DNA of 64,000 nt from Platerodrilus igneus (taxonomy: Eukaryota > Arthropoda > Insecta > Coleoptera > Lycidae). Below are positions 35-28,378 of this stretch, in pieces. How positions within the stretch are numbered: the first letter of the stretch is position 1; each line of letters starts with the position of its first letter. Location: contig JARFIW010001254.1 in the NCBI GenBank assembly GCA_036346225.1, positions 97,001-161,000 of the forward strand. Reading direction: 5' to 3'. The notes under the pieces were generated by a model that searched no databases, had not been told where the DNA came from, and worked only from the letters and a program-made list of their open reading frames with translations. The position numbers and the translations under genes are program-made.

Positions 35-998
35 TTAAAGGGGATCCAGAATGAATGGCTTCAAGCTCGATAGCAAAATAAGATTGTTGAGTATACACAA
101 GCAAAAAGCATTGTGCAACTCAGAAGATGACAAAGGTCCGGGGTACCTTTCGAGTGGGTGACGTAGATTATGAAGAAAACGGAGAATGCAAGCAACAATG
201 CGAGTAATAAATGGAAAGGAAGAGTTATTTTCTAGAATTGATTGAATCCAAGAGGATGTTACGACAGCGGATAAAACAATAGAGCGTTGTTCAGTGAGAA
301 CTTCAGGGATATCTGAAGGCGGAATATATGGACTGGAGTTTTCGAAAGACCGATACAAGGTTGGTGAAGCCGCTCACCATAGAGAACATGGGCACAAGTC
401 GGTAGGGAGTAAACCACGTGACCCGACATCGGCAGGATTCTCGGTGGAAGGGATGTGATGCCAAGAGGCGCGAGACGTGTTTTCCTGAAACTCTTCCAAC
501 GCTGTGGCGGGGAACGAATCCACGAAAATACTACCATGGAGTCAGACCAACAGTAAATTTTATGAAAAGTAAGGTTCGAATCAAAAGTTTTGAGGACAAA
601 GATTAATAGTTTGGATGTCAGTGTGGCGGCCAACAATTCGAGACGGGGTAAAGAGGTTGTACGAATGGGTACGACCTTAGACTTAGCGCACAGTAAGCGA
701 ACCTCAACGGCGGAAGGAGTAACAAAGCGAAAATAAACAACAGCACAGTAGCCACGTTCGGAAGCGTCAGCAAAGCAGTGAACTTCGCACGTAGTAAACT
801 GTGGCGGGATAAGCAAGCGGGGTAAAGCGAAATCCGTAAGAAGCGGTAACTAATGCAAGTATTTCTCCCACAAACGGAGGAGGTCGGGGGGAGGGGAGCA
901 TCCCAGTCTAATTTCAACGACCATAAACGTTGAATTAAGTGAGAGAGAGAATTAAGTGAGAAAAGTAAGAGGGGATAAACGTCCCATGGGGTCGACAA
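35..998 (-). pseudogene. Bel/Pao retrotransposon pol fragment (RT end, RNase H, linker)
   Basis: Remnant of the pol polyprotein of a Bel/Pao LTR retrotransposon, read from high to low coordinates. The segment at 618-998 contains LWSLKLDWDAPLP, a characteristic Bel/Pao motif after the reverse transcriptase. The overlapping frame at 259-816 contains FADASERGYCAVVYFR and PRLELLAATL, the RNase H-like region. At 35-358 comes the linker before integrase (RIVACILRFLHNLR, GPLSSSEL). The parts lie in different frames with stops between them, so the gene is dead. No LTR is visible because the window starts inside the element. The family call rests on these motifs and is firm; the exact frameshift points are not. 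Confidence 0.85.
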
Positions 999-2376: not shown

Positions 2377-2579
2377 CACAACAGTAGACCATTTTCAGGC
2401 AACCCACTGCCACATTTCCACCAGCATCCACATTTCCACACACATCTGGACCAAATTTACATGTAAAAACCCACTATAAAGTCTTATTTTTAAGAATCTC
2501 CACCTGCTCTCTCCCTGTGGAGATGAATCTCCTCCTTGTGGAATTTTTTACCCCAACCATTTTGATTACATCGCACCCG

Positions 2580-3345
2580 CATTCTTTCCACCCGCGAGAT
2601 AAATCTTTCTCCACATTTCCACCCACGAGATAAACCTATCTTGTTTGGTATCAATTAATATTAGAATTTTCTCAGCTACCCAAATCTCTTTAAATTTTTC
2701 AGATTGCATCATCCCCAAGGGAGCTACCCCCATTTTAAGATTTCTTACCTGTTGCGATTTCCGACCATCCTTAAACATTTTTTTACTCATGCGATGCATC
2801 TTTTTAGTCTAGAATTTTACGCAGAATTCGAATCTGTAAACAGATTTGCAATAGGACCACGCCCTGCAAAGTTACACATATACCCTCTGCGAGATAAATC
2901 TTTCTCCACATTTCCACCCACGAGATAAACCTACCTTGTTTAGTATCAATTAATATTAGATTTTTCTCAGCTACCCAAATCTTTTTAAATTTTTCAGATT
3001 GCATCATCCCCAAGGGAGCTACCCCCATTTTAAGATTTCTTACCTGTAGCGACTTTTGAGCGTTCTTATAAAAATTTTTATACATGCGATACATCTTGTT
3101 AGTCTAAAATTTTATGTAGAATCCAAATCTGCAAACAGATTTAATATAGGACCACGTCCTGCAAAATTACACATATACCCTCTGCGAGATAAATCTTTCT
3201 CCACATTTCCACCCACGAGATAAACCTACCTTGTTTGCTATCAATTAATATTAGATTTTTCTCAGCTACCCAAATCTCTTTAAATTTTTCAGATTGCATC
3301 ATCCCTAAAGGAGCTACCCCAATTTTAAGATTTTGTACCAAGATC
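2580..3345 (-). repeat. Triplicated ~295-bp cassette, left arm copy
   Basis: Mirror image of the cassettes at 13057-13820; see that entry. In this arm the middle unit keeps an open 60-bp mini-exon-like segment (the right arm has lost one T there), so this copy is the less damaged for that unit. Confidence 0.8.
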
Positions 3346-3933
3346 AATTTCTAATCACCTCTCCTTTTTAATATCTACAATCCTTTAACCAAACACGTAG
3401 CAGTATTAACATAAATTAAGCATGCGAAAATTTAATAATATATTTTATTCGATTTACAGTTTAATAAACTAATTACAATTTTACAAAGTATAACATTATT
3501 TCCTGTATGTAACCGAATCCAAGTAGATTAACCTGTAACAAAAAGATTAATGTGTTGTTTAAATAGACCTGTAATAAAAAGAGATTAATGTAAAAAAGAG
3601 GAAACGTGTTTTCGGTTAATAAGACATATTATCGTTAATCTAACAATATGTTTTACCGTCCAGCGACACCACGTGGAGGTAAACACATTCAATGTAATGG
3701 GTTTTAAATATGTTGAATGGGAAGGTCAACTTTACGTAATTATCGCGTGGTTAATAATTAAGAAAGCTGTATATAATTTCTTTTCCAAACAAATGCGGTT
3801 ATTACAATAGGAAAGTACGCTAAATGCAAGTCAATTAACAGCAATTAAATATTGCTTACTGACCTACCTTAATTAGGTTGCTGTGCTATTAGGACCCGGG
3901 TATGCAGACTTTAATACCTCCATCTCGCACGCT

Positions 3934-4224
3934 TTACACGGATGTTGGTTGTTTCGTACAAGACCCTTTAACAGCTGGCGGAGCTGAACGTTTACGGCTT
4001 AATGACATACCGTGCTGTTTTTCCTTGTGTCGCTGTAAGTTGCCCATTCTCGTAAAAGCGATACCGCAAGTCCCACAGTTTAAGTACTTTGCTGCGGACG
4101 GATGTATAAGCTTAACCGTGGACGATGTTACACCACGACATTTGTTCTGGTGCCGTTTGAGCGCATTTTTCCAGGTATAGGAAGCACCGCAAGAATTGCA
4201 CTTAAAAACTTTGCAGATACCATT
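3934..4224 (-). pseudogene. C2H2 zinc-finger segment, left arm copy
   Basis: Mirror image of the open frame at 12175-12465 in the right arm. It encodes the same two C2H2-type fingers with one visible base difference. See the right-arm entry for details. Confidence 0.6.
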
Positions 4225-5911
4225 TTAGTACAAAACAAAATCCGCACTATAGCACTTTGGTTAAACTTGTAATCGAACTAACTAAAAAGCTTACTCGAGC
4301 GTACCTGATTTATGTTCCTTATAGAATGCATACCGAAGGTTTCGAAGACACCCGAACGAAGTTGAGGATTCAGCGGGGAACTAAATGACATCATAATCCT
4401 TGCTGCTCGTCCAATACATTTAGCGCCAATGCATGCACCTGGTTTGCATCGTTGATGGTGCGAATGCCGTTAGTAGAAACATCGGAAACGTCTTCCATGT
4501 TATACGGATCGCGTGCATATTAAAAATCCAAAAGGGTGGTAGCACACGCACACAAATTGTGTGCAAGTCGTGCTGTAGAAGATGCAGTGCTACTATAACC
4601 AAAAACACTTTAAACCATTACTAAGGAAATACCAACTTGTTGTCTACAGAATACTTACTAATAAAGCAATTTAATTTTAAATAACTTCTACGTCATATTT
4701 TAGGAAATGGAGGGTTTAAATATTTTCCAAATGAATCACCAAGCGAAAGTATATGCTTAGCGGTATTCAAATTACCCATTAATTTCCCATTTTTACGATC
4801 GTGGTTAATTATAGATTAAAATTTAATTTGTGCACGTTCGAGCTTCCCGTAAACTAACATATTTTAGAGCAACAATGCGCTGTATAATACATGCATACCC
4901 TTCGCCGCGCTACTGCTATTCTTGTAATTGCTAGAAAAAGTCACTCTCCTTTTTACTGTTAGGACCGATGCAAAGCACCAATTTTTTTTTATACTTTCTA
5001 TAGCACATCGCGCGCTTTTTTCGTATGATAATTAAATTTGCTTCTGTAAGCTTTTACACTGTCGCATAGCGGTCAATCGCACGTAATGATTTCTAGAACC
5101 GGTAAGTACTCGATATCGTCCAAATAGAGAAATAGATGCTCGATGTCCGTCAACTTCCAATTCCCTCGTAAAAGGTAGAAAAAACTCAATCATCCATCTA
5201 ACTTAAACTTCAACCCGCTCCTGTTCTGATAATTTACAAACATTTTTCAAACGACAATGGGCCGAGAATTTTTAAACATCCGAGGGATCTTTAAGTCGTG
5301 ATCAATTACACATCCGAGCTACGCGTAAACTAACATATTTTGCAGCAACTGTGCACTGTATAATACATGCATACCCCTTCTCTGCGCTACTGCTATTCTT
5401 GTAATTGCTAGAAAAAGTCACTCTCCTTTTTATTGTTAGGACCGATGCAAAGCACCATTCCATACTTTCTTTATAAGTGTAGCACATCGCGCATTTTTTT
5501 GTCGGATAATTAAATTTTTGTTTATGTAGGCTTTTACACTTTTGCTTATTTAAACGTCTAATACGATCAATTAACCACTTTCGCTTATTCTAACAGGAAC
5601 CACCATACATTGCTCCACAACGCTTTTTTTGATTCCAACGATCCTATGGGCTTCCGCACACTAACACCTGACGTATCTTTCCTACCCATTTGTTAAACAA
5701 AAACTACCGGCATCGCTATTGTGGACGTAAACAGATGTTTGTGGATGTGTACGAGAATATGTAACCATATACATTAATCAGTCTAAGCTATTTTATTTAG
5801 TCCACGAAAATTATTATTTTTCTAAACCATAATTAATAATCGCCTTTATAGGTACCACATTTTGACCATTTCCCAATGACTGGTGCTACGTACATGGAAA
5901 CTTAAATTTCT

Positions 5912-6200
5912 TATTGGAGAGAATTCTTATTCTCCCACGCACTGCTGCGTAGCTGCATGCCCACCCCTTTTGGAGGTATATGCTCGTTATAGGTTGTAAG
6001 AGCCTCGGTTTTACTTAACTACAATTCGTGAGACCCCTTTAATCTTTTTAATCGTATCTTTCTCGCCTACAATACAGTAGGACTTAACATTACTACCAAC
6101 AAATTCTAATACTGGACCCCATTAAATACGTCTTTAATTTTCCTACAACTTTTTGTTGACAAGAGTTATATTGTATTTATTATACGCGGGGTAGTCACTC
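5912..6200 (-). pseudogene. DNA polymerase B remnant and 602-aa-gene-like fragment, left arm copy
   Basis: Mirror image of 10205-10500. Here the polymerase piece keeps EFVG where the right arm has EFLG, but it has lost bases in two homopolymer runs and is frameshifted. The two arms have therefore decayed separately since they were last made equal. Confidence 0.6.
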
Positions 6201-6795
6201 TTTTAAGATAAATATATTTTGTTTGGCATCAACTAATATTAAATTTTTCTAGGGACCCAAAATTTGTAAATAAATTTTAAATAGGACCACCCCATACAAA
6301 GTTGTGCCTTTTAAAGACTAATTTTTGTCCATCTTTTATTTAACTCCATCTTTAAAACCCTTTTTGCTACGCAAGACATATGCCTTAGCCAACCATCTCC
6401 CGAGAAATCTAAAACCGATGTGTCCCGCGAACACCACGAGGAGGTCACACGTATACTCTGTCAACCAGGATAGAAGCAGGAAAGATTTGGAAGGTGGGCG
6501 AAGAACTTAAAAATTATGGAATTTAAAAAACTAATATATACAATAGATTTACAAAATCTATACAAATATAAACAACTATCTTATATCTTTACGTCCCCAT
6601 GCGTAGATTGTTGTACTATTAGGAATGATATACCTTTTGTCATCTTCGATCGATAAACTAATTTTATTAATTATATGCGTGTACAAATCGTGTTTTACTC
6701 CGGATACATACGCCGGCAAGTACTCCACACCAAATAAAGAATTAGATGCTTGGTGACTGTTAACATCCGTTTCCCTCGTGTACGCCCAAACATAT

Positions 6796-6880
6796 CCCAG
6801 CCCATGAGCACCCCTGCGCATGCACACCCCTGCCCATGCGCGCCCCCTGCGCGTGCGCACCCCTGCCCATGCGCACCCCT
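6796..6880. repeat. GC-rich minisatellite, left arm copy
   Basis: Complement of the 9530-9614 array of about five 16-17-bp units. Alternating GCGCATGCGC-type purine-pyrimidine runs stand out against the AT-rich surroundings. Confidence 0.75.
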
Positions 6881-7071
6881 CTCTGTGTGACTGCTATTTC
6901 GGGGTAACGTCACAACCTTTTGTAAATAAAGAGCAATGTAATACTATTATAAAATGTTTATTCTGACATTATACATAACAAATTTAAAAATATTTAATAC
7001 CAAGCATGGAGTCATTTAAACTTAATTTTAATACAAAGTTATACACAGAAGACAGTCCTTTCTTTATGTTT

Positions 7072-7103
7072 GGTTAGGTCAGCGCCGCGGCGCTGACCTA
7101 ACC
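7072..7103. promoter_or_regulatory. Perfect 32-bp GC-rich palindrome at the arm/core border
   Basis: The sequence GGTTAGGTCAGCGCCG is followed at once by its exact reverse complement. It begins two bases inside the unique core and ends 38 bases before the first gene. It is present once, since the other arm border is occupied by the end of the 602-aa gene. It can form a 16-bp hairpin or bind a symmetric protein. Possible roles are replication origin, promoter element or an arm-joining scar; none is proven. Confidence 0.8.
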
Positions 7104-7124
7104 TATTAATTGGTAATATTTGTT

Positions 7125-7148
7125 ATGTCGAAGGCGAGCAGATGCTGA
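7125..7148 (+). other. Seven-codon upstream ORF overlapping the 139-aa gene start
   Basis: An ATG at 7125 opens a frame that ends in TGA at 7146-7148, just past the ATG at 7142. A ribosome finishing it would stop on top of the next start. This resembles the 1-base gap between the two main genes and suggests termination-reinitiation. This is inferred only from spacing. Confidence 0.4.
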
Positions 7149-7561
7149 CTGGTGGACTACACACACCAATTACAGAACCATTTTGTGACAACATAATGTT
7201 GGTTAAAATTTGCGACTTTTCTGACGCCGAACAAACCTCTGCAAGCAAAAGGATGTTTATCCTAAAAAAAGAAATTTGTGGTGCATTTAACAGCTATCTA
7301 CGAAGAAAGTTTGACCGATTTGTTTCCGCTAGGCATGGTATTAAAGCTAAGCTTCCGTTTTCTCTGGAAAGCACTAACAAGATGGGCCAGAGAGTAAAAG
7401 AAATTATCGGAAAAGAAGACCTCGAATGCATTAATAAAAAATTCCAAAATCCTATATGTGTTCCATACAAAGTGGAACTAGCAGATGTTAAGTTGGAAAC
7501 TTTATTAGAGGAACTACCAGATATATTAGACGAACTCGAAAAGATTATTTCTATCTTTTGA
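7142..7561 (+). CDS. Uncharacterised 139-aa protein, first gene of the core
   Basis: Intact frame starting at the ATG at 7142. I do not recognise the family. The protein is hydrophilic and mixed-charge, with no signal peptide, membrane segment or clear zinc site. The middle (about residues 38-75) is rich in Lys and Arg (MFILKKEICG, SYLRRKFDRFVSARHGIKAK), fitting a nucleic-acid-binding or scaffold helix. The end (about 110-139) is leucine- and acid-rich (ETLLEELPDILDELEKI), a likely amphipathic helix. Its stop is followed after one base by the start of the 602-aa gene. The two were therefore probably made from one transcript and may act together. Because it is uninterrupted inside an otherwise decayed neighbourhood, it was probably under selection recently. 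Confidence 0.75.
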   Translation: MLTGGLHTPITEPFCDNIMLVKICDFSDAEQTSASKRMFILKKEICGAFNSYLRRKFDRFVSARHGIKAKLPFSLESTNKMGQRVKEIIGKEDLECINKKFQNPICVPYKVELADVKLETLLEELPDILDELEKIISIF

Positions 7562-7562
7562 C

Positions 7563-9371
7563 ATGGATGTAACCCAAGATTTTGCGGGTATATTTAGCAA
7601 GATGGAGATGTGTAATTATTTAACTACAAACCATAACTTTTGCTATAAGGGCGAATACGAAGAAAAGTGTAATATTATAGTTGACAACGATAAAACTGTA
7701 GGAATTGATTGTTTAACATGGCTAACAACCAATGCAAGAATTAAGATATACAACAAATTTGTGTGTCAGATAACAAGTCCTGGTGTTAATAAACAACTTG
7801 GTAATCATATACTAGATTTTTTACGTTGTCCAGATGTACGTTTAAGGGAAACATTTGCGTCTACTTTGGTCAAAGAACATGGTATTACGCGATTGGAAGC
7901 GACAATATACAACTGTGCAATTGGAAGCTATGTCAGTGCGGAACGGGTGTATAATCCCTTAAAAGACTGTTTAACGTTATTGGAAGATAGTAAGTTATAC
8001 TTCCTAAAGGCGCCAATGTACTCGGTACCACTTGCCAAAATGTGGAGTAAGCTATCGGACAAACTACAAAATAGTTGCTGTTTAGTGTATAATAACCTAC
8101 TACAGTACGTGTATTGGGGTAATGGTAATACAAAGAAATTGACGGGCTTGCAAATTAAGTTGTCCGAAAAACCAAAAGAAAGGGAAACATTGATAAAGTA
8201 TGTACTTTCGGCTTTTAGTTTTAACTATTTACCCGTAAATTATTTGGAGATAGTAGAGGAGGAAGACAGCCAAGATAAAATAAAAATCTTACACAAGTGC
8301 TACATTAAAGCAGGTAGTACATATTTTACACAATCTGCAACACCATATTCTACAATTCCAAAAGAAATAGTCATTTCGGAATTGGGATTGATAAATACAC
8401 CTAACATTCGTCCAGAGGTTGTACGACAACGCGTAAATATTGGTAGTAAACTTTATCCGTTTACGCTAAAGGAAATTGCCCCATTATGCATACCATACGC
8501 TGTAAGTGGAAGGAAAAGACAACTGAAATTAGAGGAAATGGATGCAAAAAGGCGAAAATTGGAGTACATGGAAAACACTGCGACAATACGCGAACAATAC
8601 AAAGATGTGTTATACAAAGAACATCTTATTAGAGAAAATGAGGAAGAATTAAAAGATTATTTTATGTGCCGATGGAGTGACTTAAATACATCCGGGTTCT
8701 ACAAGCTGTATGCATTTGCGGTTAGTAAGAAAGACTCTTTTAGTTATGTAGGCGTTCTTGCGGAAAAGGATGGTACTAAATCCGTATACTTTTTAAAAGG
8801 TTATTCTAAAAACGTATTTATCAAAATGGTAGATAACAAAGAAGAACTAAGGAATGCGGGTTTCGTAACCTTGGCGTACACCACACGTAAAGGGGTTCCG
8901 CTAAACATTGTATATTTGCCTAGTAAAGAACCTTTCGGATCATTTAAAACCGAGGGTCTTACAACCTATAACAACCATATATTCCCAAAAGTGGTGGACA
9001 TGCAACTACGCAACAGTGTGTGGGAGAATAAGGATTTCCTCCAATACCGACAAGAAGAAGTCGATCAAGCTAACAAGATACGTATGCAGGATATAGTGGG
9101 AAAGCTGCGATTAAAAGATTGTCACAAGCTGCAGGAATTAGACGAAGGAATGGATCTGGTTGTCGGTGGAATCAAAGACTTTAAATATAGGGGCAAACTT
9201 CACTACATTTTACAATTCGAAAACCTACACGGTCTTTATGTATCAAACTATTGGTTAGAAAAGGAGATAGAAGACTTGGGTCTCGATTTAAATTTTAAGC
9301 TGCGAATAAAATTAGATAAAATTAAAACCACTCCAAACAAACATAAAGAAAGGACTGTCTTCTGTGTATAA
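7563..9371 (+). CDS. Uncharacterised 602-aa protein, possible replication initiator of the palindromic element
   Basis: Intact frame of 602 codons with an ATG one base after the previous stop. Visible features: residues 57-72 read TNARIKIYNKFVCQI and residues 107-116 read GITRLEATIY. An aromatic-basic strand (IYNK) followed by an R-x-E-x-x-x-Y strand is loosely reminiscent of rolling-circle replication initiators, but I see no HUH triplet, so this is a weak analogy. Residues 316-365 are strongly basic then acidic (GRKRQLKLEEM, AKRRKLEYM), suggesting a nuclear signal and coiled coil. The C-terminal ~150 residues look beta-rich. The last dozen or so codons lie in the right arm, so the gene end is mirrored at 7033-7070. 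A decayed copy of residues 461-495 lies in each arm. An AATAAA follows the stop. Function is not established. Confidence 0.8.
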   Translation: MDVTQDFAGIFSKMEMCNYLTTNHNFCYKGEYEEKCNIIVDNDKTVGIDCLTWLTTNARIKIYNKFVCQITSPGVNKQLGNHILDFLRCPDVRLRETFASTLVKEHGITRLEATIYNCAIGSYVSAERVYNPLKDCLTLLEDSKLYFLKAPMYSVPLAKMWSKLSDKLQNSCCLVYNNLLQYVYWGNGNTKKLTGLQIKLSEKPKERETLIKYVLSAFSFNYLPVNYLEIVEEEDSQDKIKILHKCYIKAGSTYFTQSATPYSTIPKEIVISELGLINTPNIRPEVVRQRVNIGSKLYPFTLKEIAPLCIPYAVSGRKRQLKLEEMDAKRRKLEYMENTATIREQYKDVLYKEHLIRENEEELKDYFMCRWSDLNTSGFYKLYAFAVSKKDSFSYVGVLAEKDGTKSVYFLKGYSKNVFIKMVDNKEELRNAGFVTLAYTTRKGVPLNIVYLPSKEPFGSFKTEGLTTYNNHIFPKVVDMQLRNSVWENKDFLQYRQEEVDQANKIRMQDIVGKLRLKDCHKLQELDEGMDLVVGGIKDFKYRGKLHYILQFENLHGLYVSNYWLEKEIEDLGLDLNFKLRIKLDKIKTTPNKHKERTVFCV

Positions 9372-9447
9372 CTTTGTATTAAAATTAAGTTTAAATGACT
9401 CCATGCTTGGTATTAAATATTTTTAAATTTGTTATGTATAATGTCAG

Positions 9448-9453
9448 AATAAA
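9448..9453 (+). terminator. Polyadenylation signal AATAAA after the 602-aa gene
   Basis: AATAAA lies 77 bases past the stop codon, with a GT-containing stretch about 40 bases further on. It would end the two-gene transcript within the right arm. The arm's mirror copy places the same signal on the opposite strand near 6957. Confidence 0.55.
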
Positions 9454-9529
9454 CATTTTATAATAGTATTACATTGCTCTTTATTTACAAAAGGTTGTGA
9501 CGTTACCCCGAAATAGCAGTCACACAGAG

Positions 9530-9614
9530 AGGGGTGCGCATGGGCAGGGGTGCGCACGCGCAGGGGGCGCGCATGGGCAGGGGTGTGCATGCGCAGGGGT
9601 GCTCATGGGCTGGG
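9530..9614. repeat. GC-rich minisatellite
   Basis: About five degenerate 16-17-bp units of the form GGGCAGGGGTGCGCAT. GC content is far above the surroundings, with alternating purine-pyrimidine runs. Open frames running through it (9497-9834) start inside the repeat, although the part from about 9640 to 9834 is open and protein-like and may be a further gene remnant. Confidence 0.8.
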
Positions 9615-10204
9615 ATATGTTTGGGCGTACACGAGGGAAACGGATGTTAACAGTCACCAAGCATCTAATTCTTTATTTGGTGTGGAGTACTTGCCGGCGT
9701 ATGTATCCGGAGTAAAACACGATTTGTACACGCATATAATTAATAAAATTAGTTTATCGATCGAAGATGACAAAAGGTATATCATTCCTAATAGTACAAC
9801 AATCTACGCATGGGGACGTAAAGATATAAGATAGTTGTTTATATTTGTATAGATTTTGTAAATCTATTGTATATATTAGTTTTTTAAATTCCATAATTTT
9901 TAAGTTCTTCGCCCACCTTCCAAATCTTTCCTGCTTCTATCCTGGTTGACAGAGTATACGTGTTACCTCCACGTGGTGTTCGCGGGACACATCGGTTTTA
10001 GATTTCTCGGGAGATGGTTGGCTAAGGCATATGTCTTGCGTAGCAAAAGGGTTTTAAAGATGGAGTTAAATAAAGATGGACAAAATTAGTCTTTAAAAGG
10101 CACAACTTTGTATGGGGTGGTCCTATTTAAAATTTATTTACAAATTTTGGGTCCCTAGAAAAATTTAATATTAGTTGATGCCAAACAAAATATATTTATC
10201 TTAA

Positions 10205-10398
10205 AAGAGTGACTACCCCGCGTATAATAAATACAATATAACTCTTGTCAACAAAAAAGTTGTAGGGAAAATTAAAGACGTATTTAATGGGGGTCCAGTA
10301 TTAGAATTTCTTGGTAGTAATGTTAAGTCCTACTGTATTGTAGGCGAGAAAGATACGATTAAAAAGATTAAAGGGGTCTCACGAATTGTAGTTAAGTA
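10205..10398 (+). pseudogene. B-family DNA polymerase C-terminal remnant (Polinton/Maverick type)
   Basis: Sixty-odd open codons ending at a stop at 10396-10398. They contain SDYP near the start, then NKKVVGKIKD, PVLEFLG, KSYCI and KKIKGVSRIVVK, in that order and spacing. From knowledge of the family this series is the C-terminal part of protein-primed B-type DNA polymerases of Polintons and related viruses, where NKKVxGKxKDE is followed by EFVGLRxKxY and KKAKGVKK. The N-terminal exonuclease and palm motifs are absent; a cassette related to the 13-kb repeats lies directly upstream. No start codon remains. It is a relic, but it is the best evidence for the element's ancestry. The call is by eye and needs a profile search. 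Confidence 0.65.
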
Positions 10399-10500
10399 AA
10401 ACCGAGGCTCTTACAACCTATAACGAGCATATACCTCCAAAGGGTGGGCATGCAGCTACGCAGCAGTGCGTGGAGAATAAGAATTCTCCAATAAGAAATT
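10397..10500 (+). pseudogene. Decayed second copy of part of the 602-aa gene
   Basis: About 100 bases align at roughly 80 percent identity, by eye, with 8945-9048 of the intact 602-aa gene. The shared stretch corresponds to the segment around TEGLTTYNNHIFPK and the following MQLRNSVWENKDF. It has stops and indels. The gene was evidently once duplicated in this element family, next to the polymerase. Confidence 0.75.
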
Positions 10501-10854
10501 TAAGTTTCCATGTACGTAGCACCAGTCATTGGGAAATGGTCAAAATGTGGTACCTATAAAGGCGATTATTAATTATGGTTTAGAAAAATAATAATTTTCG
10601 TGGACTAAATAAAATAGCTTAGACTGATTAATGTATATGGTTACATATTCTCGTACACATCCACAAACATCTGTTTACGTCCACAATAGCGATGCCGGTA
10701 GTTTTTGTTTAACAAATGGGTAGGAAAGATACGTCAGGTGTTAGTGTGCGGAAGCCCATAGGATCGTTGGAATCAAAAAAAGCGTTGTGGAGCAATGTAT
10801 GGTGGTTCCTGTTAGAATAAGCGAAAGTGGTTAATTGATCGTATTAGACGTTTA

Positions 10855-11570
10855 AATAAGCAAAAGTGTAAAAGCCTACATAAACAAAAATTTAATTATC
10901 CGACAAAAAAATGCGCGATGTGCTACACTTATAAAGAAAGTATGGAATGGTGCTTTGCATCGGTCCTAACAATAAAAGGAGAGTGACTTTTCTAGCAATT
11001 ACAAGAATAGCAGTAGCGCAGAGAAGGGGTATGCATGTATTATACAGTGCACAGTTGCTGCAAAATATGTTAGTTTACGCGTAGCTCGGATGTGTAATTG
11101 ATCACGACTTAAAGATCCCTCGGATGTTTAAAAATTCTCGGCCCATTGTCGTTTGAAAAATGTTTGTAAATTATCAGAACAGGAGCGGGTTGAAGTTTAA
11201 GTTAGATGGATGATTGAGTTTTTTCTACCTTTTACGAGGGAATTGGAAGTTGACGGACATCGAGCATCTATTTCTCTATTTGGACGATATCGAGTACTTA
11301 CCGGTTCTAGAAATCATTACGTGCGATTGACCGCTATGCGACAGTGTAAAAGCCTACAGAAGCAAATTTAATTATCATACGAAAAAAGCGCGCGATGTGC
11401 TATAGAAAGTATAAAAAAAAATTGGTGCTTTGCATCGGTCCTAACAGTAAAAAGGAGAGTGACTTTTCTAGCAATTACAAGAATAGCAGTAGCGCGGCGA
11501 AGGGTATGCATGTATTATACAGCGCATTGTTGCTCTAAAATATGTTAGTTTACGGAAGCTCGAACGTGCA
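10855..11570. repeat. Two diverged ~230-bp repeats in the right arm
   Basis: Segments 10865-11097 and 11345-11560 align over their length. Both contain GCGCGATGTGCTA or a close variant, GGTGCTTTGCATCGGTCCTA, and TAGCAATTACAAGAATAGCAG. They are separated by about 250 bases of non-repeated DNA. A weaker third match lies at 9503-9532. They may be duplicated intergenic control regions of the ancestral element. The mirrored pair is at about 4840-5540. Confidence 0.75.
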
Positions 11571-12174
11571 CAAATTAAATTTTAATCTATAATTAACCAC
11601 GATCGTAAAATGGGAAATTAATGGGTAATTTGAATACCGCTACATATACTTTCGCTTGGTGATTCATTTGGAAAATATTTAAACCCTCCATTTCCTAAAA
11701 TATGACGTAGAAGTTATTTAAAATTAAATTGCTTTATTAGTAAGTATTCTGTAGACAACAAGTTGGTATTTCCTTAGTAATGGTTTAAAGTGTTTTTGGT
11801 TATAGTAGCACTGCATCTTCTACAGCACGACTTGCACACAATTTGTGTGCGTGTGCTACCACCCTTTTGGATTTTTAATATGCACGCGATCCGTATAACA
11901 TGGAAGACGTTTCCGATGTTTCTACTAACGGCATTCGCACCATCAACGATGCAAACCAGGTGCATGCATTGGCGCTAAATGTATTGGACGAGCAGCAAGG
12001 ATTATGATGTCATTTAGTTCCCCGCTGAATCCTCAACTTCGTTCGGGTGTCTTCGGAAACCTTCGGTATGCATTCTATAAGGAACATAAATCAGGTACGC
12101 TCGAGTAAGCTTTTTAGTTAGTTCGATTACAAGTTTAACCAAAGTGCTATAGTGCGGATTTTGTTTTGTACTAA

Positions 12175-12465
12175 AATGGTATCTGCAAAGTTTTTAAGTG
12201 CAATTCTTGCGGTGCTTCCTATACCTGGAAAAATGCGCTCAAACGGCACCAGAACAAATGTCGTGGTGTAACATCGTCCACGGTTAAGCTTATACATCCG
12301 TCCGCAGCAAAGTACTTAAACTGTGGGTCTTGCGGTATCGCTTTTACGAGAATGGGCAACTTACAGCGACACAAGGAAAAACAGCACGGTATGTCATTAA
12401 GCCGTAAACGTTCAGCTCCGCCAGCTGTTAAAGGGTCTTGTACGAAACAACCAACATCCGTGTAA
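12175..12465 (+). pseudogene. Two-finger C2H2 zinc-finger segment
   Basis: Open frame of 96 codons ending at TAA (12463-12465), with no usable ATG at its start. It contains FKCNSCGASYTWKNALKRHQ followed by a Cys, and about 30 residues later LNCGSCGIAFTRMGNLQRHK followed by a His. These are two recognisable C2H2-type fingers (the first C2HC), with a basic tail RKRSAPPAVK. Just upstream is TACTAAA then CAAAG, a plausible branch point and splice acceptor, so this may be a 3' exon. A protein of this type would bind DNA. Both arms keep it open, differing by one base. It could be a captured host exon or an element-encoded regulator. Confidence 0.6.
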
Positions 12466-13056
12466 AGCGTGCGAGATGGAGGTATTAAAGTCTGCATACC
12501 CGGGTCCTAATAGCACAGCAACCTAATTAAGGTAGGTCAGTAAGCAATATTTAATTGCTGTTAATTGACTTGCATTTAGCGTACTTTCCTATTGTAATAA
12601 CCGCATTTGTTTGGAAAAGAAATTATATACAGCTTTCTTAATTATTAACCACGCGATAATTACGTAAAAGTTGACCTTCCCATTCAACATATTTAAAACC
12701 CATTACATTGGAATGTGTTTACCTCCACGTGGTGTCGCTGGACGGTAAAACATATTGTTAGATTAACGATAATATGTCTTATTAACCGAAAACACGTTTC
12801 CTCTTTTTTACATTAATCTCTTTTTATTACAGGTCTATTTAAACAACACATTAATCTTTTTTTGTTACAGGTTAATCTACTTGGATTCGGTTACATACAG
12901 GAAATAATGTTATACTTTGTGAAAATTGTAATTAGTTTATTAAACTGTAAATCGAATAAAATATATTATTAAATTTTCGCATGCTTAATTTATGTTAATA
13001 CTGCTACGTGTTTGGTTAAAGGATTGTAGATATTAAAAAGGAGAGGTGATTAGAAA

Positions 13057-13820
13057 TTGATCTTGGTACAAAATCTTAAAATTGGGGTAGCTCCCTTAGG
13101 GATGATGCAATCTGAAAAATTTAAAGAGATTTGGGTAGCTGAGAAAAATCTAATATTAATTGATAGCAAACAAGGTAGGTTTATCTCGTGGGTGGAAATG
13201 TGGAGAAAGATTTATCTCGCAGAGGGTATATGTGTAATTTTGCAGGGCGTGGTCCTATATTAAATCTGTTTGCAGATTTGGATTCTACATAAAATTTTAG
13301 ACTAACAAGATGTATCGCATGTATAAAAATTTTATAAGAACGCTCAAAAGTCGCTACAGGTAAGAAATCTTAAAATGGGGGTAGCTCCCTTGGGGATGAT
13401 GCAATCTGAAAAATTTAAAGAGATTTGGGTAGCTGAGAAAAATCTAATATTAATTGATACTAAACAAGGTAGGTTTATCTCGTGGGTGGAAATGTGGAGA
13501 AAGATTTATCTCGCAGAGGGTATATGTGTAACTTTGCAGGGCGTGGTCCTATTGCAAATCTGTTTACAGATTCGAATTCTGCGTAAAATTCTAGACTAAA
13601 AAGATGCATCGCATGAGTAAAAAAATGTTTAAGGATGGTCGGAAATCGCAACAGGTAAGAAATCTTAAAATGGGGGTAGCTCCCTTGGGGATGATGCAAT
13701 CTGAAAAATTTAAAGAGATTTGGGTAGCTGAGAAAATTCTAATATTAATTGATACCAAACAAGATAGGTTTATCTCGTGGGTGGAAATGTGGAGAAAGAT
13801 TTATCTCGCGGGTGGAAAGA
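13057..13820 (+). repeat. Triplicated ~295-bp cassette with splice-like signals
   Basis: Three tandem units start at about 13071, 13365 and 13660. Each holds a region that translates to GVAPLGMMQSEKFKEIW and NLILIDTKQGRFISWVEMW or close variants. Between units is a CTGTTTACAG- or TCTAG-like acceptor, a 60-bp block rich in Lys and Arg codons (for example MHRMSKKMFKDGRKSQQ), and CAACAG/GTAAGA or CTACAG/GTAAGA, a consensus splice donor. A diverged fourth unit lies at 10100-10245. Whether the conserved long frame is coding or intronic is uncertain, since the donor precedes it. Confidence 0.75.
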
Positions 13821-14026
13821 ATGCGGGTGCGATGTAATCAAAATGGTTGGGGTAAAAAATTCCACAAGGAGGAGATTCATCTCCACAGGGAGAGAGCAGG
13901 TGGAGATTCTTAAAAATAAGACTTTATAGTGGGTTTTTACATGTAAATTTGGTCCAGATGTGTGTGGAAATGTGGATGCTGGTGGAAATGTGGCAGTGGG
14001 TTGCCTGAAAATGGTCTACTCACAAC

Positions 14027-14394
14027 CTAAAATAACATCCCTAACCAAATCAGGTAGCACCAAAAATGGATACTCAAATTCCACTCTCCCCATTCTTACT
14101 AATAAACAAACCTGCTCCCTAACCTTTATACGTTTATTACCCCAAACCCCCGTTAACGTAGCGCTCCTGCACGGTACTAGCGGGACTACTGAATTATTCT
14201 CCTCTAACTTTTTCAAAAACTTGTCGGAAATTTCTGTTATTTGGGAACCTGAATCCACTAATGCCCTTACCACAAATTATCATATCCACAATTGGTACTA
14301 AAGCAATAGGTTTAGTGCTTTCTTGCACTCCATTTTCTTCCACCCAATCATTTAAATCCGAATTAATAATTGTCGAAACTTCACTCTGATCAGG
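14027..14394 (-). pseudogene. Ty3/gypsy aspartic protease segment
   Basis: On the minus strand, 14016-14273 contains RALVDSGSQITEISDKFL, the DSG active-site motif of retroviral-type aspartic proteases. A later DVILG segment fits the second conserved loop. Upstream (14280-14394) is the gag-protease linker in another frame. The gene is cut at 14020 by the 11.6-kb palindrome and at 14403 by the 10-kb foldback element. Together with the gag pieces near 25 and 28.5 kb and RT at 1.4-2.4 kb, this is one dispersed gypsy element. Confidence 0.85.
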
Positions 14395-19949: not shown

Positions 19950-22900
19950 GTTTCAATATATATTGCTAAGACCTTCTTTAATATACCTGCAAAAACCAAA
20001 TTTACTTGCGACCCGTATGGGTATCAAAATCGACCCCTGTAAACTTCAAAAATCGTCTATTAATGATATAAATAGGAAAAAAAGCAGAAGTAGCAGAAGG
20101 CCATCGAGTTACACCTTCCGCTTTGGCACATATATTGCTATGACCTTCCTTAATGTACCTGTGAAAACCAAATTTACTTGCGACCCGTATGGGTATTACA
20201 CTCGACATTGTAAGCTTCAAAAACCATCTTTTAATAATAGAAATAGGAAAAAAAATCAGAAGTGGCAGAAGGCCATCGAGTTACACCTTCCGCTTTGGCA
20301 TATATATTGCTAAGACCTTCCTTAATGTACCTGTAGAAACCAAATTTACTTGCGACCCGTATGGGTATCAAAATCTACCCATGTAAATTTCAAAAATCGT
20401 CTATTAATGATATAAATAGGAAAAAAAAGCAGAAGTAGCAGAAGGCCATCGAGTTACACCTTCCGCTTTGGCACATATATTGCTAAGACCTTCCTTAATG
20501 TACCTGTAGAAACCAAATTTACTTGCGACCCGTATGGGTATCAAAATCGACCCCATGTAAACTTCAAAAATCGTCTATTAATGATATAAATAGGAAAAAA
20601 ATCAGAAATAGCAGAAGGCCATCGAGTTACACCTTCCGCTTTGGCACATATATTGTTAAGACTTTCCTTAATGTACCTGTAGAAACCAAATTTACTTGCG
20701 ACCCGTATGGGTATCAAAATCGACCCGTATAAGCTTCAACATTCATCCCTTAATGATATAAATAGGAAAAAAATCAGAAGTGGCAGAAGGCCATCGAGTT
20801 ACACCTTCCGCTTTGGCATATATATTGCTACGACCTTCCTTAATATACCTGCAAAAAACCAAATTTACTTACGACCCGTATGGGTATCAAAATCGACCCA
20901 TGTAATCTTCAAAAATTATCTTTTAATGTTATTAATAGAAAAAAAATCAGAAGTGGCAGAAGGCCATCGAGTTACACCTTCCGCTTTGGCACATATATTG
21001 CTATGACCTTCCTTAATGTACCTATGAAAACCAAATTTACTTGCGACCCGTATGGGTATTAAACTCGACATTGTAAGCTTCAAAAACCATCTTTTAATAA
21101 TATAAATAGGAAAAAAAATCAGAAGTGGCAGAAGGCCATCGAGTTACACCTTCCGCTTTGGCATATATATCGCTAAGACCTTCCTTAATGTACCTGTAGA
21201 AACCAAATTTACTTGCGACCCGTATGGGTATTAAAATCTACCCATGTAAATTTCAAAAATCGTCTATTAATGATATAAATACGAAAGCAGAGAGCAGGCA
21301 TCGAGTTACACCTTCCGCTTTGGCACATATATTGCTAAGACCTTCCTTAATGTACCTGTAGAAACCAAATTTACTTGCGACCCGTATGGGTATCAAAATC
21401 GACCCCATGTAAACTTCAAAAATCGTCTATTAATGATATAAATAGGAAAAAAATCAGAAATAGCAGAAGGCCATCGAGTTACACCTTCCGCTTTGGCACA
21501 TATATTGTTAAGACTTTCCTTAATGTACCTGTAAAAACCCAATTTACTTGCGATCCGTATGGGTATTAAAATCGACCCGTATAAGCTTCAAAATTCATCA
21601 CTTAATGAAATATTTAGATTACCAAATCAGGTAAAAAATCGTCATTAATGATAAATAGAAAAATCAGTAGCAGAAGGCCATCGAGTTACACCTTCTGCTT
21701 TGGCACATATATTGCTAAGACGTTCTTTAATGTACCTGCGAAAACGAAATTTACTTGCGACCCGTATGGGTATCAAAATCGACCCCATGTAAACTTCAAA
21801 AATCGTCTATTAATGATATAAATAGGAAAAAAATCAGAAATAGCAGAAGGCCATCGAGTTACACCTTCCGCTTTGGCACATATATTGTAAGACGTTTCTT
21901 AATGTACCTGCGAAAACCAAATTTACTTGCGACCCGTATGGGTATCAAACTCGACCCTGTATAAGCTTCAAAACCGTTCATCACTTAATGATACCACATA
22001 CGGAAAAGTCAGCAAATCATCGAGTTGATTTCTACATGCTACTTTCTAAGGAAGGTTCTTAGCAATATATGTACCAAAGCGGAAGGTGTAACTCAAATGG
22101 CGTTCTTGCGACCCGATATGGGTATCCTATTTATACTCGACCCTTAAGTGAATTTCTATACGTCGATTTTTAATGATACCCATACGGGTTCGCAAATAAA
22201 TTTGATTTCTACAGGTACATTTAAGGAAGGTCTTAGCAATATATGTGCCAAAGCGAAGGTGTAACTCGATAGGCCTTCTGCTACTTCTGATTTTTTCCTA
22301 TTTATATCATTAATAGACGAATTTTGAAGCTTATACGGGTCGATTTTAATACCCATACGGTTCGCAAGTAAATTTGGTTTTTACAGGTACATTAAGGAAG
22401 GTCTTAGCAATATATGTGCCAAAGCGAAGGGTGTAACTCGATAGCCTTCTGCTGCTTCTTATTTTTTGCTATTTATATCATTAATAGACGATTTTTGAAG
22501 TTTACATGGTGTCGATTTTGATACTCATACGGGTCGCAAGTAAATTTTGTTTTTACAGGTACATTAAGGAAGGTCTTAGCAATATATGTGCCAAAGTGGA
22601 AGGTGTAACTCGACGACCTTCTGCTACTTCTGATTTTTTTTCCTATTTATATAATTAATAGACGATTTTTGAAAATTACAGGGCCGATTATGATATCCAT
22701 ACGAGTCGCAAATAAATTTGGTTTTTACATGTAGATTAAGGAAGGTCTTAGCAATGTATGCGCCAAAGTGGAAGGTGGTACTCGATGGTCTTTTGCCACT
22801 TCTGATTTTTTTTTATTTATATCATTAAAAGATGGTTTTTGAAGCTTACAGGGGTCGAGTTTGATACCCATACGGGTCGCAAGTATATTTGGTTTTTACA

Positions 22901-24150
22901 GGTACAAGTACATTAAGGAAGGTCTTAGCAATATATGTGCCAAAGCGGAAAGTGTAACTCGATGGCCTTCTGCTACTTCTGATGTTTTTCCTATTTACAT
23001 CATTAATAGACGATTTTTGAAGCTTACAGGGGTTGAGTTTGATACTCATACGAGTCGCAAGTAAATTGGGTCTCTTTACAGGTACATTAAGGAAGGTCGT
23101 AGCAATATATGTGCCAAAGCGGAAGGTGTAACTTGATGGCATTCTGCCACTTCTGATTTTTTTTCTGTTTATAACATTAAAAGATGATTTTTGAAGATTA
23201 CAGGGGTCGATTTTGATAGCCATACGGGTCACAAATAAATTTGGTTTTTGCAAGTATATTAAGGATGGTCTTAGCAATATATATGCCAAAGTGGAAGGTG
23301 TAACTCGATGACCTTCTGCCACTTCTGATTTTTTTCTTATTTATATCATTAAAAGATGGTTTTTGAAGATTACAGGGGTCGAGTTTGATACCCATACGAG
23401 TCGTAAGTAAATTGGATCTTTACAGGTATATTAAGGAAGGTCGTAGCAATATATGTGCCAAAGCGGAAGGTGTAACTCGATGGCATTCTGCCACTTCTGA
23501 TTTTTTTTCTGTTTATAACATTAAAAGATGATTTTTGAAGATTACAGGGGTCGATTTTGATACCCATACGGGTCACAAATAAATTTGGTTTTTGCAAGTA
23601 TATTAAGGAAGGTCTTAGCAATATATATATGCCAAAGTGGAAGGTGTAACTCGATGACCTTCTGCCACTTCTGATTTTTTTCCTATTTATATCATTAGAA
23701 GATGGTTTTTGAAGATTACAGGGGTCGAGTTTGATACACATACGGGTCGCAAATAAATTTGGTTTTTATAGGTACATTAAGGAAGGTCTTAGCAATATAT
23801 GTGCCATAGCAGGAGGTGTAACTCGATGGCCTTCTGCTACTTCTGATTTTTTTTCCTATTTATATCATTAAGTGATGAATTTTGAAGCTTATACGGGTCG
23901 AGTTTGATACTAATACGGGTCGCAAGTAAATTTGGTTTTTACAGATACATTAAGGAAGGTGTTAGCAATATATGTGCCAAAGCGGAAGGTGTAACTCGAT
24001 GGCCTTCTGCCACTTCTGATTTTTTTCCTATTTATATCATTAAAAGATGGTTTTTGAAGCTTACACAGTTCGGCTCTGATACCCATACCGGTCGCAAGTA
24101 ATTTTGGTTTTTGCAGGTGCATTAAGGAAGGTTTTTACAATGTATGTGCC
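19950..24150. repeat. ~173-bp satellite units in inverted array
   Basis: Roughly a dozen units read forward up to about 22020, then about a dozen read in reverse. A typical unit holds ACCTTCCTTAATGTACCTG, GCGACCCGTATGGGTATC, TCTATTAATGATATAAATAG and CGAGTTACACCTTCCGCTTT. Spacing between successive GACCCGTATGGG sites is about 172-180 bases. Units near the inversion point (21.6-22.2 kb) are the most damaged. Short open frames through these units are by-products of the repeat. Confidence 0.9.
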
Positions 24151-24462
24151 TCAGTGGAAGGTGTAATTCGACGGCTTTCTGCCATTTGATTTGTTTCACT
24201 TTATTATTTAAGGAGGGTTTTTGAAATCCATATGGGTCGAAAGGTAATTTGGTTCTACTGGGACTGTAAGGGTGGTCATTTTAATAGTTGTGCCAAGGCG
24301 GAAGGTGTAAGTGTAGCTCCATTTCTGAAATCGCATTTTGTCTATTCAATAAAGTTTGCACGAAAAATTTACTGCTGGGAATTTACTGCCATTTGTACAT
24401 CTCCTTCCTCGTAAAAATTACTGCTAGAATTTTACTGCTAACTTCACACCGGTCGAGCTAGG

Positions 24463-25182: not shown

Positions 25183-28100
25183 AGGTGCGTGAAGTTAGCC
25201 GCAACATTTTTGAATTTTTTAAAAATATTTATGTCATAATTAGGCGCAATAAACTATTTTTCTGATCTCCAAAAACGTGAAGTTGGCCGCGACTTTTTCG
25301 ATTTTTGATAAAAATTTTGCACCACAATTAAGCGGTAATTAGGCGCCATTTTGCGCCGTTAAAACGAAATTTTGCGCCCTTCTGTGTAACAAGTTATTTG
25401 AAAAAAACCATTTCTCCAAACTAGCCCAAAATCGTGAAGTTGGCCGCGACTTTTTTGAATTTTGAAAAAAATTTTGTACCACAATTAAGCGGTAATTATG
25501 CGCCATTTTGCGCCGTTGAAACGAAATTTTGCGCCCTCCTGTGTAACAAGTTATTTGAAAAAAACAATTTCTCCATACTACCCAAAATCGTGAAGTTGGC
25601 CGCGACTTTTTCGAATTTTGAAAAAAATTTTGTACCAAATTTAAGCGGTAATTAGGCGCCTTTTTGCGCCGTTGAAACAAAATTTTGCGCCTTCCTGTGT
25701 AACAAGTTATTCGAAATAAACTATTTTTATAAGCGACCTAAAATCGTGAAGTTGGCCGCGACTTTTTCGAATTTTGAAAAAAATTTTGTACCACAATTAA
25801 GCGGTATTTATGCGCCATTTTGCGCCGTTAAAACGAAATTTTGCGCCCTCATGTGTAACAAGTTATTTGAAAAAAACCATTTCTCCAAACTAGCCCAAAA
25901 TCGTGAAGTTGGCCGCTACTTTTTTGAATTTTGAAAAAAATTTTGTACCACAATTAAGCGGTAATTAGGCACCATTTTGCGCCGTTGAAACAAAATTTTG
26001 CGCACCCCGTGTAACAATTTATTTGAAGAAAACTTTGTCTGGCTATCTTAGACGCGTGTTTTCAATGTTGAAATTACCGTTCTTTACAATAAGTATTGTA
26101 GTTGAGAGATACAAGGAATGTGCTATAGAAAATATTATTGTAGCCTAAACAAATAAATACATTATATATAACCAGTAGCGTCTTGCATTTTGCTGAGTAC
26201 ACAGGATTTATTTACGTATAATATAGAGGTAAGATTTAAACAAATAAAAGTGAAATACAATTCGCTGCTGACTTTCACAAAATCTCTGTTAGAAATATTA
26301 AAATCGGCATTTAGGATCTTAGTCTTAAATAATAAAATACTTGTATAAGCGTTTTTTAAAAAACAACCCTTAAGTGTAGAATAGAAAATTAAAGTTGGTA
26401 TGAGAATTTTATTTCCTGTTATTAACTTGAAACTTCATAAAAATATATTATTAATCAAGTATTTAAATTATGTAAAATTACTCCTAACCAGGGGGTGTAA
26501 TTCCATGGTAATACTTTCAAATATGATAAAATAAGATATGCAAATTATAAATTCTTTATGCATGAAGAGGCGGGCGACAGCTAATTTCTGATAAGAAGAC
26601 ACCGCTGGTGGCCAACTATATTATGTTCGCTTACTAGCTGTGTCCGTTAGTTCTAGAAATTAGTATAAATCAAGATATGAATGTATATACAGATCGGAAA
26701 AATGGTTTTTTTCAAATAACTTGTTACACACGAGGGCGCAAAATTTCGTTTTAACGGCGCAAAATGGCGCTTAATTACCGCTTAATTGTGGTACAAAATT
26801 TTTTTCAAAATTCAAAAAAGTCGCGGCCAACTTCACGATTTTGGGTAGTATGGAGAAATAGTTTTTTTCAAATAACTTGTTACACAGGAGGGCGCAAAAT
26901 TTCGTTTCAACGGCGCAAATGGCGCATAATTACCGCTTAATTGTGGTACAAAATTTTTTTCAAAATTCAAAAAAGTCGCGGCCAACTTCACGATTTTGGG
27001 TAGTATGGAGAAATAGTTTTTTTCAAATAACTTGTTACACAGGAGGGCGCAAAATTTCGTTTCAACGGCGCAAAATGGCGCATAATTACCGCTTAATTGT
27101 GGTACAAAATTTTTTTCAAAATTCAAAAAAGTCGCGGCCAACTTCACGATTTTGGGTAGTATGCAGAAATAGTTTTTTTCAAATAACTTGTTACACAGGA
27201 GGGCGCAAAATTTCGTTTCAACGGCGCAAAATGGCGCATAATTACCGCTTAATTGTGGTACAAAAAGTTTTTCAAAATTCAAAAAGTCGCGGCCAACTTC
27301 ACGATTTTGGGCTAGTTTGGAGAAATGGTTTTTTTCGAATAACTTGTTACACAGAAGGGCGCAAAATTTCGTTTTAAAGGCGCAAAATGGCGCCTAATTA
27401 ACGCTTAAATTTGGTACAAAATTTTTTTCAAAATTCGAAAAAGTCGCGGCCAACTTCACGATTTTGGGTAGTATGGAGAAATAGTTTTTTTCAAATAACT
27501 TGTTACACAGGAGGGCGCAAAATTTCGTTTCAACGGCGCAAAATGGCGCATAATTACCGCTTAATTGTGGTACAAAATTTTTTTCAAAATTCAAAAAAGT
27601 CGCGGCCAACTTCACGATTTTGGGTAGTATGGAGAAATAGTTTTTTTCAAATAACTTGTTACACAGGAAGGCGCAAAATTTCGTTTCAACGGCGCAAAAT
27701 GGCGCATAATTACCGCTTAATTGTGGTACAAAATTTTTTTCAAAATTCAAAAAAGTCGCGGCCAACTTCACGATTTTGGGTAGTATGGAGAAATAGTTTT
27801 TTTCAAATAACTTGTTACACAGGAGGGCGCAAAATTTCGTTTCAACGGCGCAAAATGGCGCATAATTACCGCTTAATTGTGGTACAAAATTTTTTTCAAA
27901 ATTCAAAAAAGTCGCGGCCAACTTCACGATTTTGGGCTAGTTTGGAGAAATGGTTTTTTTCGAATAACTTGTTACACAGAAGGGCGCAAAATTTCGTTTT
28001 AACGGCGCAAAATGGCGCCTAATTACCGCTTAATTGTGGTGCAAAATTTTTTTCAAAATTCGAAAAAGTCGCGGCCAACTTCACGTTTTTGGAGTTCAGA

Positions 28101-28378
28101 AAAATAGTTTATTGCGAATAACTTGGTACACAAGAGGGCGCAAAATTTCGTTTCAACGGCGCAAAATGGCGCCTAATTGGCGCTAAATTATGGAATAAAG
28201 ATTTTCTGAAAATTGAAAAGAAGTGCGGCTTCGTGAACTTGGCCGGAAAAATCTTATTTTATCAATAACTTGTTTGCCAAGACGGCGCAAAATTTAGTTT
28301 TAGCGGCGCAAAATGGCGCCTAATTATGACAAATATTTTGAAAAAATTCAAAAATGTTGCGGCTAACTTCACGCACCT
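25183..28378. mobile_element. 3.2-kb foldback element of ~156-bp repeats, 9-bp duplication
   Basis: Ends begin AGGTGCGTGAAGTTAGCCGC and are flanked by CCCACATTC at 25174-25182 and 28379-28387, a 9-bp target duplication. The left arm has about five tandem units and the right arm about nine inverted units, separated by 26040-26690. A unit contains CGTGAAGTTGGCCGCGACTT, TTAAGCGGTAATTA, TTTTGCGCCGTTGAAACG and TGTGTAACAAGTTATTTGA. The inner period of 156-157 bases is divisible or nearly divisible by three, so frames stay open on both strands for 100-200 codons; these are artefacts. No transposase is present. The terminal GTGAAGTTAGC is shared with the 10-kb element at 14404, suggesting the same mobilising system. 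Confidence 0.85.
26040..26690. other. AT-rich spacer between inverted arrays
   Basis: Unique AT-rich DNA forming the loop of the 3.2-kb foldback element. I see no gene, promoter or RNA structure in it. Confidence 0.6.

Follow-up and report, generated by a model that had tools for sequence, protein, structure and literature searches.

We wondered how a giant palindrome that seems to lack an enzyme for its own movement could have come to be inserted, between two copies of a 6-bp target-site duplication (TSD), in the genome of the lycid beetle Platerodrilus igneus. The element occupies positions 2383-14020 of the window, our term for the whole stretch of 64,000 nucleotides analysed here (contig JARFIW010001254.1, positions 97,001 to 161,000). 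On balance we think it probable that it is a palindromic relative of Polintons without an intact integrase or polymerase gene, which is moved and copied in trans by Polinton enzymes and carries a broken gene for a Rep_trans-type initiator. In the open-access literature searched we found neither this element nor a eukaryotic Rep_trans transposon described.

An earlier reading by a model that saw only the letters of the DNA (the sequence-only reading) had described the perfect inverted ends, the CACAAC duplication on both sides and the near-identical 4.7-kb arms, and re-measurement returned all of these at the same coordinates. The arms of 4693 nt (left) and 4686 nt (right) align with 4668 matching columns, 9 mismatches and 25 gap columns; mostly single-base gaps thus make up 25 of the 34 differing columns. 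Their inner parts (6352-7075 and 9335-10058) pair across a core of 2259 bp (7076-9334). The same reading had seen two genes in the core. Relatives of about 780 amino acids (aa) span both core open reading frames (ORFs) in protein comparison, so the two ORFs are one gene, referred to here as the Rep-like gene; this copy is without its first ~40 codons, changes frame between 7142-7561 and 7563-9371 and has its last 37 nt in the right arm. The features of the window element are as follows.

2377..2382, unstranded: TSD CACAAC, left copy (read directly)
14021..14026, unstranded: TSD CACAAC, right copy (read directly)
2383..7075, plus strand: left palindrome arm, 4693 nt (arm alignment)
9335..14020, minus strand: right palindrome arm, 4686 nt (arm alignment)
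2383..2467, plus strand: outer end AGTAGACC..., Polinton-like (89.4% over 85 bp to Polinton L031 8471-8387)
13936..14020, minus strand: outer end, mirror copy (89.4% over 85 bp to Polinton L031 8387-8471)
2594..3333, plus strand: subterminal tandem repeat, period 295, 2.5 copies (blocks 87.6-90.8% like Polinton L031 7988-8237)
13071..13809, minus strand: subterminal tandem repeat, mirror copy, period 294, 2.5 copies (tandem repeat detection)
12175..12465, plus strand: C2H2 zinc-finger gene fragment, related to the zinc-finger region upstream of Polinton PolB (zf-C2H2, 7.8e-8)
3946..4209, minus strand: zinc-finger fragment, mirror copy (75% over 88 aa to the zinc-finger ORF of another copy)
9715..9831, plus strand: scrap of the Polinton PolB C-terminus, PolB ORF residues 1000-1038 (72% over 39 aa, E 8e-13)
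6579-6695: mirror copy of the PolB 1000-1038 scrap
10208..10393, plus strand: Polinton PolB scrap, residues 909-970 (73% over 62 aa, E 2e-20)
6017-6199: mirror copy of the PolB 909-970 scrap
7039..7075, minus strand: inner end of the left arm, where the final 37 nt of the Rep-like gene recur in antisense (arm pairing)
7072..7103, unstranded: perfect 32-bp palindrome, the remaining symmetry axis (44-bp form elsewhere in the genome)
7142..7561, plus strand: Rep-like gene, first piece, without the gene start (63% to relative P0001 residues 42-184)
7563..9371, plus strand: Rep-like gene, second piece, in another frame (57% to P0001 residues 191-789), with the predicted catalytic motifs DxDxTxD, KxYxK and RxE and a C-terminal OB-like part

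When the flanks are joined with the element and one CACAAC removed, a protease-like frame runs open across the junction, as had been noticed from the sequence alone; with its DSG motif it resembles a retroviral-type protease. Copies of the empty site exist elsewhere in the genome: of 21 matches to the joined flanks, 18 run through it without a break, at 74-88% identity, while two of the remaining three are the window's own halves and the third starts at base 70 of 150. This is a genuine insertion, and its host site resembles a retrotransposon remnant.

Is the palindrome one of a kind? The genome searched (2.71 Gb in 1723 contigs) was queried with the first 318 bases of the element, and 40 places were scored of 3638 candidates: the window pair, ten further facing pairs (20 rows) and 18 unpaired ends. 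All ten further pairs delimit mirror-image elements with unlike flanks, each with a perfect 6-bp duplication. Three more elements, from the list of Rep-like genes, have the duplications TCCGGA, CAGAAT and TATGGC/GATGGC, the last with one mismatch; together with the window this gives 14 elements read, 13 of them with a perfect 6-bp TSD, as judged by eye. The choice of pairs favours palindromes and the 18 unpaired ends were not read, hence the 14 do not give the share of palindromic copies. The expectation of a multicopy family with 6-bp duplications is borne out by these 13 further elements. With different flanks and their own TSDs, they also dispose of the refutation that the sequence-only reading had named, a single copy or an assembly fold-over; a single-copy element was accordingly rejected. 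The family numbers hundreds of copies.

The 14 elements read end in AGTAG, the left end of C858 (ATTAG) being the exception. The sixth base varies: most elements, that of the window among them, read AGTAGA, C12 has AGTAGT exactly and C131 has AGTAGG; the left end of C858 reads ATTAGA. The first 6-27 outer bases vary by subfamily (AGTAGACC, AGTAGAGG, AGTAGTGT, AGTAGGAG), and both ends of an element agree except in C858. Among zinc-finger ORFs (150 scored of 24,190 candidates) there are seven neighbouring pairs within 16 kb, and in all seven the ORFs point apart, an arrangement that hints at further mirror-image copies. One insertion is nested: at L029 2360-2403 and in the C1267 flanks, an element sits at TCCGGA in what is apparently the upstream region of another family copy, an outer copy with a shorter axis palindrome and a different centre.

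What the palindrome is made of became apparent when the halves of the elements were laid along a common yardstick. In C1397 a half-unit runs from its outer end (r=1) past the gene stop (~r=4767) and gene start (~r=7136) to the symmetry axis (r=7627). The two halves of each element reach to the following positions r, left before right.

C1397: 7627 and 7219
C447: 7627 and 6051
C467: 7473 and 6564
C1236: 7176 and 5836
C588: 7627 and 1928
C1087: 7000 and 6944
C1309: 6412 and 7450
C843: 4463 and 7625
C12: 7620 and 2985
C1267: 3687 and 7555
C131: 7627 and 5625
C858: 1459 and 7395
C30: 3130 plus 7052-7252, and 7144
Window: 4800, and 7013 plus the axis hairpin

In every element one half reaches r of at least 7000, and the other ends at a different r each time. 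C1397 holds two head-to-head gene copies, both to their starts, and in others the second copy is cut back. The reaches of the halves thus show that the fuller copies consist of two head-to-head half-units with the gene in both arms. In the window element, which is such a copy, the left gene is missing together with most of the centre and the beginning of the right gene. The earlier proposal of inverted arms that had 'grown' over most of the element is therefore not borne out as stated: fuller copies carry the gene in both arms, and the window differs from them by its central gap.

Such a gap lies at or beside the axis in all 14 elements and is individual to each. Seven central junctions inspected by eye share 0-3 nt. 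Roughly half of the elements have one side that extends as far as the axis, and several run 1-35 nt round it. The axis palindrome, in its 44-bp form, is found at 572 places in the genome, with none for a reversed control, and in four elements (the window element, C131, C447 and C1397) it marks the boundary of the side that was cut back. A one-sided, 57-base form of the axis gave 941 matches at up to three mismatches; among the first 100 of these, all exact, both sides are kept at 4 of 96 axes. As 941 matches exceed 572 axes, the number of axes with a longer two-sided stem may be higher.

The kinship with Polintons that the sequence-only reading had proposed is supported at several levels. The same genome has many PolB genes (115 match rows, 87 scored of 6269 candidates), and one Polinton was read, at C970:683477-694970, with ends AGTAGT//ACTACT, TSD ATCATC, terminal inverted repeats (TIRs) 95.5% identical over 596 columns and gene matches to PolB, an A32-type ATPase, a double-jelly-roll protein and rve. 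Both ends of the window element are 89.4% identical to the end of this Polinton over 85 bp, inner blocks of 249-284 bp are 88-92% identical to it, and the arms carry zinc-finger pieces as well as Polinton PolB scraps of 39 and 62 aa (72-73% identity), to which the protein-primed PolB gene is reduced, both from its C-terminal part. In the portions of PMC8097293 consulted, the most common ends of vertebrate Mavericks are (AGT)2//(ACT)2, the other terminal motif being (AG)3//(CT)3. Inside the window element there is no ORF of at least 120 aa besides the two Rep-like pieces; no rve integrase or capsid gene is among its ORFs of this size, shorter ORFs and other copies not having been scanned for these families, and no transposase family was found in the scanned pieces. 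The element thus has no transposase of its own that we could find, as had been suspected, and it is plausible that Polintons move it in trans. By eye, none of 57 Rep-like loci lies within 20 kb of any of the 115 PolB rows.

We then turned to the Rep-like gene. At least 57 near full-length copies are present in the genome (57 scored of 28,913 candidates), of which 19 contain no stop. Named relatives of the protein come from hemipterans, a grasshopper, a mussel and a ciliate; one labelled as a bacterial symbiont genome is taken to be insect contamination. The predicted catalytic domain appears nearest in fold to Rep_trans rolling-circle initiators, TBP fitting equally well by one aligner. Their catalytic motif comprises a tyrosine, a neighbouring lysine, three acids and RxE (PMC4797284 and PMC6499999, as far as the portions consulted go). 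In alignment A3, counted over rows with a letter in the column, the corresponding residues stand in the matching order and are kept almost throughout: D67 in 35 of 35 rows, D194 in 35 of 36, D198, Y255 and K257 in 36 of 36 each, and R302 and E304 in 35 of 35 each. Two RepD positions differ, R189 being K253 and E196 being C260 in the Rep-like protein. The replication protein of Propionibacterium phage B5 was rejected as a Rep_trans yardstick, as it matches Rep_1.

Sequence searches contributed little. In a Pfam scan the longer window piece matched nothing at E up to 10, and the shorter one hit a single family, weak and unrelated. Searches of viral_contigs, of phages (tblastn) and of genome_contigs turned up no relatives. 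The PDB sequence search returned nothing at E up to 10 for the profile and only haemoglobins (E of at least 0.56) for the single sequence, and the ciliate relative used as query found only itself among 7992 scored candidates. A whole-protein fold search of BFVD gave two matches at E <=0.001, both with a low TM-score, one unnamed and one LEF-3. The fold prediction and the conserved residues suggest that the Rep-like protein is likely a nicking initiator of the Rep_trans type with no convincing sequence-family match. Two peculiar arrangements involve this gene. At G000:C1595:71584-73962 and 79120-81498, two Rep-like copies separated by 7.5 kb both point the same way, which departs from the mirror layout, and the Aphis glycines gene model P0034 fuses part of the Rep-like protein to a PF13843 domain, presumably that of a piggyBac-type transposase, through a nested insertion or a gene-model error.

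The divergence between arms bears on how the halves came together. In two regions compared, the window arms differ from each other by 0.16% and 0.46% and from the nearest other element by 5.08% and 6.89%; for C467 these values are 0.00% and 0.40% against 3.07% and 5.01%. Elements without such own-arm pairing are either nearly identical young copies or C1309 and C843, the arms of which differ by up to 1.92% and 2.47% and have another element closer. By these distances the older lineages have homogenised arms, and in some elements the halves may have come from two different sources.

Taken together, the window element reads as a Polinton-dependent inverted dimer with its own initiator, in which integrase movement, nicking at the axis and the origin of the gap are steps that we infer. 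The Rep-like protein would nick the axis hairpin or cruciform and start strand-displacement copying. Copying round the hairpin would yield a head-to-head dimer with a Polinton-type end at both termini, which the Polinton integrase could recognise and insert by a 6-bp staggered cut. Being a long perfect palindrome, the dimer would break at or beside its axis, before or after insertion, and be joined again with little homology; such a central break would leave one gene copy more or less whole and trim the other. A more specific version, in which a eukaryotic Rep_trans branch replicates a hairpin-ended half-unit by nicking an axis cruciform, the unit is dimerised and inserted by the Polinton integrase, and each insertion breaks beside the axis to leave hundreds of individually scarred giant palindromes, is one that we put forward only tentatively.

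Several observations weigh against the reading as a Polinton-dependent dimer. None of the 14 elements is an undeleted palindrome; the perfect dimer is therefore a hypothesis, and a perfect form that is stable within the chromosome becomes less likely; even at the four most symmetric axes, exact symmetry stops after 42, 53, 57 and 72 bases. The single Polinton read has a stop in its integrase frame and no Rep-like gene. The Polinton pieces in the arms form a mosaic that does not follow Polinton order, for which reason a simple internal deletion of a Polinton was also rejected. As to the initiator, TBP scores equal to Rep_trans for the predicted catalytic domain by aligner VIA, and PF02486 (Rep_trans) is not one of the 25 families, the maximum shown, that a scan of 34 relatives gave. 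The closest relative of an arm is the opposite arm of the same element in only three of nine elements in region 1 (window, C467, C12) and two of eight in region 2 (window, C467), and the C1309 arms group with different elements, which fits joined half-units better than copying round one hairpin.

How do other explanations fare? The model of the sequence-only reading, which we regard as unlikely, derives the palindrome from a Polinton deletion derivative with a single central gene, the terminal repeats of which were lengthened inward by gene conversion or break-induced copying. It would account for an arm/core boundary that differs between copies and for the homogenised arms of the window and C467, and the tract would run from the 3' end of the gene towards its start, as is observed. 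It does not predict a hairpin where the axis palindrome lies, with the same centre at 572 places and at the cut-back boundary of the four elements named above, nor would a single central gene leave C1397 with both copies to their starts. A related notion, that the left arm was copied late from the right one, was set aside once the fuller copies proved to have two gene copies and is retained as a rival. Quite unlikely, in our estimate, is an origin from two linear half-units, each with a Polinton-type end and a broken inner end, that were end-joined head to head before insertion. Junctions that differ in all 14 elements, with 0-3 shared nt in the seven inspected, are in keeping with it, as is trimming of both halves (C1236, C1087); the C1309 arms, 1.92% apart and grouping with different elements, are what halves from different copies would give. 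Such joining does not predict sides that extend to the axis, as in roughly half of the elements, or that carry on 1-35 nt round it, as in several.

Explanations that do without Polintons, or without an insertion, convince us less. An integrated small DNA virus with its own Rep protein is improbable: the Rep-like gene is conserved in insects, a mussel and a ciliate, and 19 of the 57 scored copies are free of stops, but the window element holds no other ORF of at least 120 aa, its ends and gene scraps are Polinton-like, and scans of viral_contigs gave no relative. We give very little credence to a conventional foldback DNA transposon (FB, Galileo or MULE type), for which the very long TIRs with internal tandem repeats would speak; 6-bp TSDs, AGTAG ends and direct DNA identity to a Polinton point elsewhere, and no transposase family was found in the scanned pieces. 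An assembly fold-over of one arm is scarcely credible, despite the predominance of mostly one-base gaps among the arm differences (25 of 34 columns), as assembly errors would give, since 13 further elements sit between different flanks, each with a TSD of its own, and related copies of the window's site exist without the element.

Compared with known systems, the element shares with Polintons/Mavericks the 6-bp TSD, AGTAG-type ends, subterminal sequence and zinc-finger and PolB pieces. In contrast to these, the window element is without an intact integrase, PolB, ATPase or capsid gene, is palindromic over most of its length and carries a Rep-like gene that is not in the Polinton read. With Rep_trans initiators (RepC/RepD of pT181, RepSTK1, and MOBT relaxases such as RelSt3) the Rep-like protein shares, on matching predicted strands, the N' acid, xDxxxD, KxYxK and RxE, and its predicted catalytic domain may have their crescent-shaped fold, but it is eukaryotic, ~780-800 aa long, has extra OB-like domains and no Pfam-level match, and its activity is a prediction. 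To our knowledge, Rep_trans-type initiators are known only from bacteria, their phages and plasmids; Helitrons, the eukaryotic rolling-circle transposons, use differently folded HUH enzymes. Foldback elements (FB-NOF, Galileo, Tetris), as far as the portions of the accounts consulted describe them, have very long inverted repeats, tandem repeats and strong variation in copy length. The 295-bp repeats in both window arms resemble these long TIRs with internal tandem repeats; the window family differs in its ends, TSD length, Polinton kinship and gene-containing arms. FB and Galileo elements have TSDs of more than 6 bp and P- or MULE-type transposases. Inverted dimers of one genome end around a hairpin are also formed as mirror-image defective genomes of adenovirus-like linear DNA and as rolling-hairpin dimers of parvoviruses. 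Those are products of viral replication, whereas palindromes of the window type are many chromosomal insertions with TSDs.

The surroundings of the element hold further repeats. Remains of long-terminal-repeat retrotransposons lie on the minus strand at window 259-816 and, at the insertion site, at 2200-2376 with 14027-14276; they comprise a Pao peptidase (PF05380) and the protease-like DSG frame described above. Large tandem arrays with periods of ~172 and ~156 bp occupy 19958-24197 and 25269-28229. ORFs with a DUF4817 helix-turn-helix are found at 56024-57088 and 58708-59541; the scan shows DUF4817 only, and the two look like mariner-type transposases.

If our reading of the element as a Polinton-dependent inverted dimer is true, the element would be a satellite that depends on an endogenous, virus-like transposon and has a replication initiator of its own, either retained or acquired. 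The genome of P. igneus also holds many natural long palindromes, each one read so far with its own central scar, from which the handling of giant palindromes by the cell could be read in the sequence. An unnamed gene family conserved in insects, a mussel and a ciliate would thereby gain a testable function.

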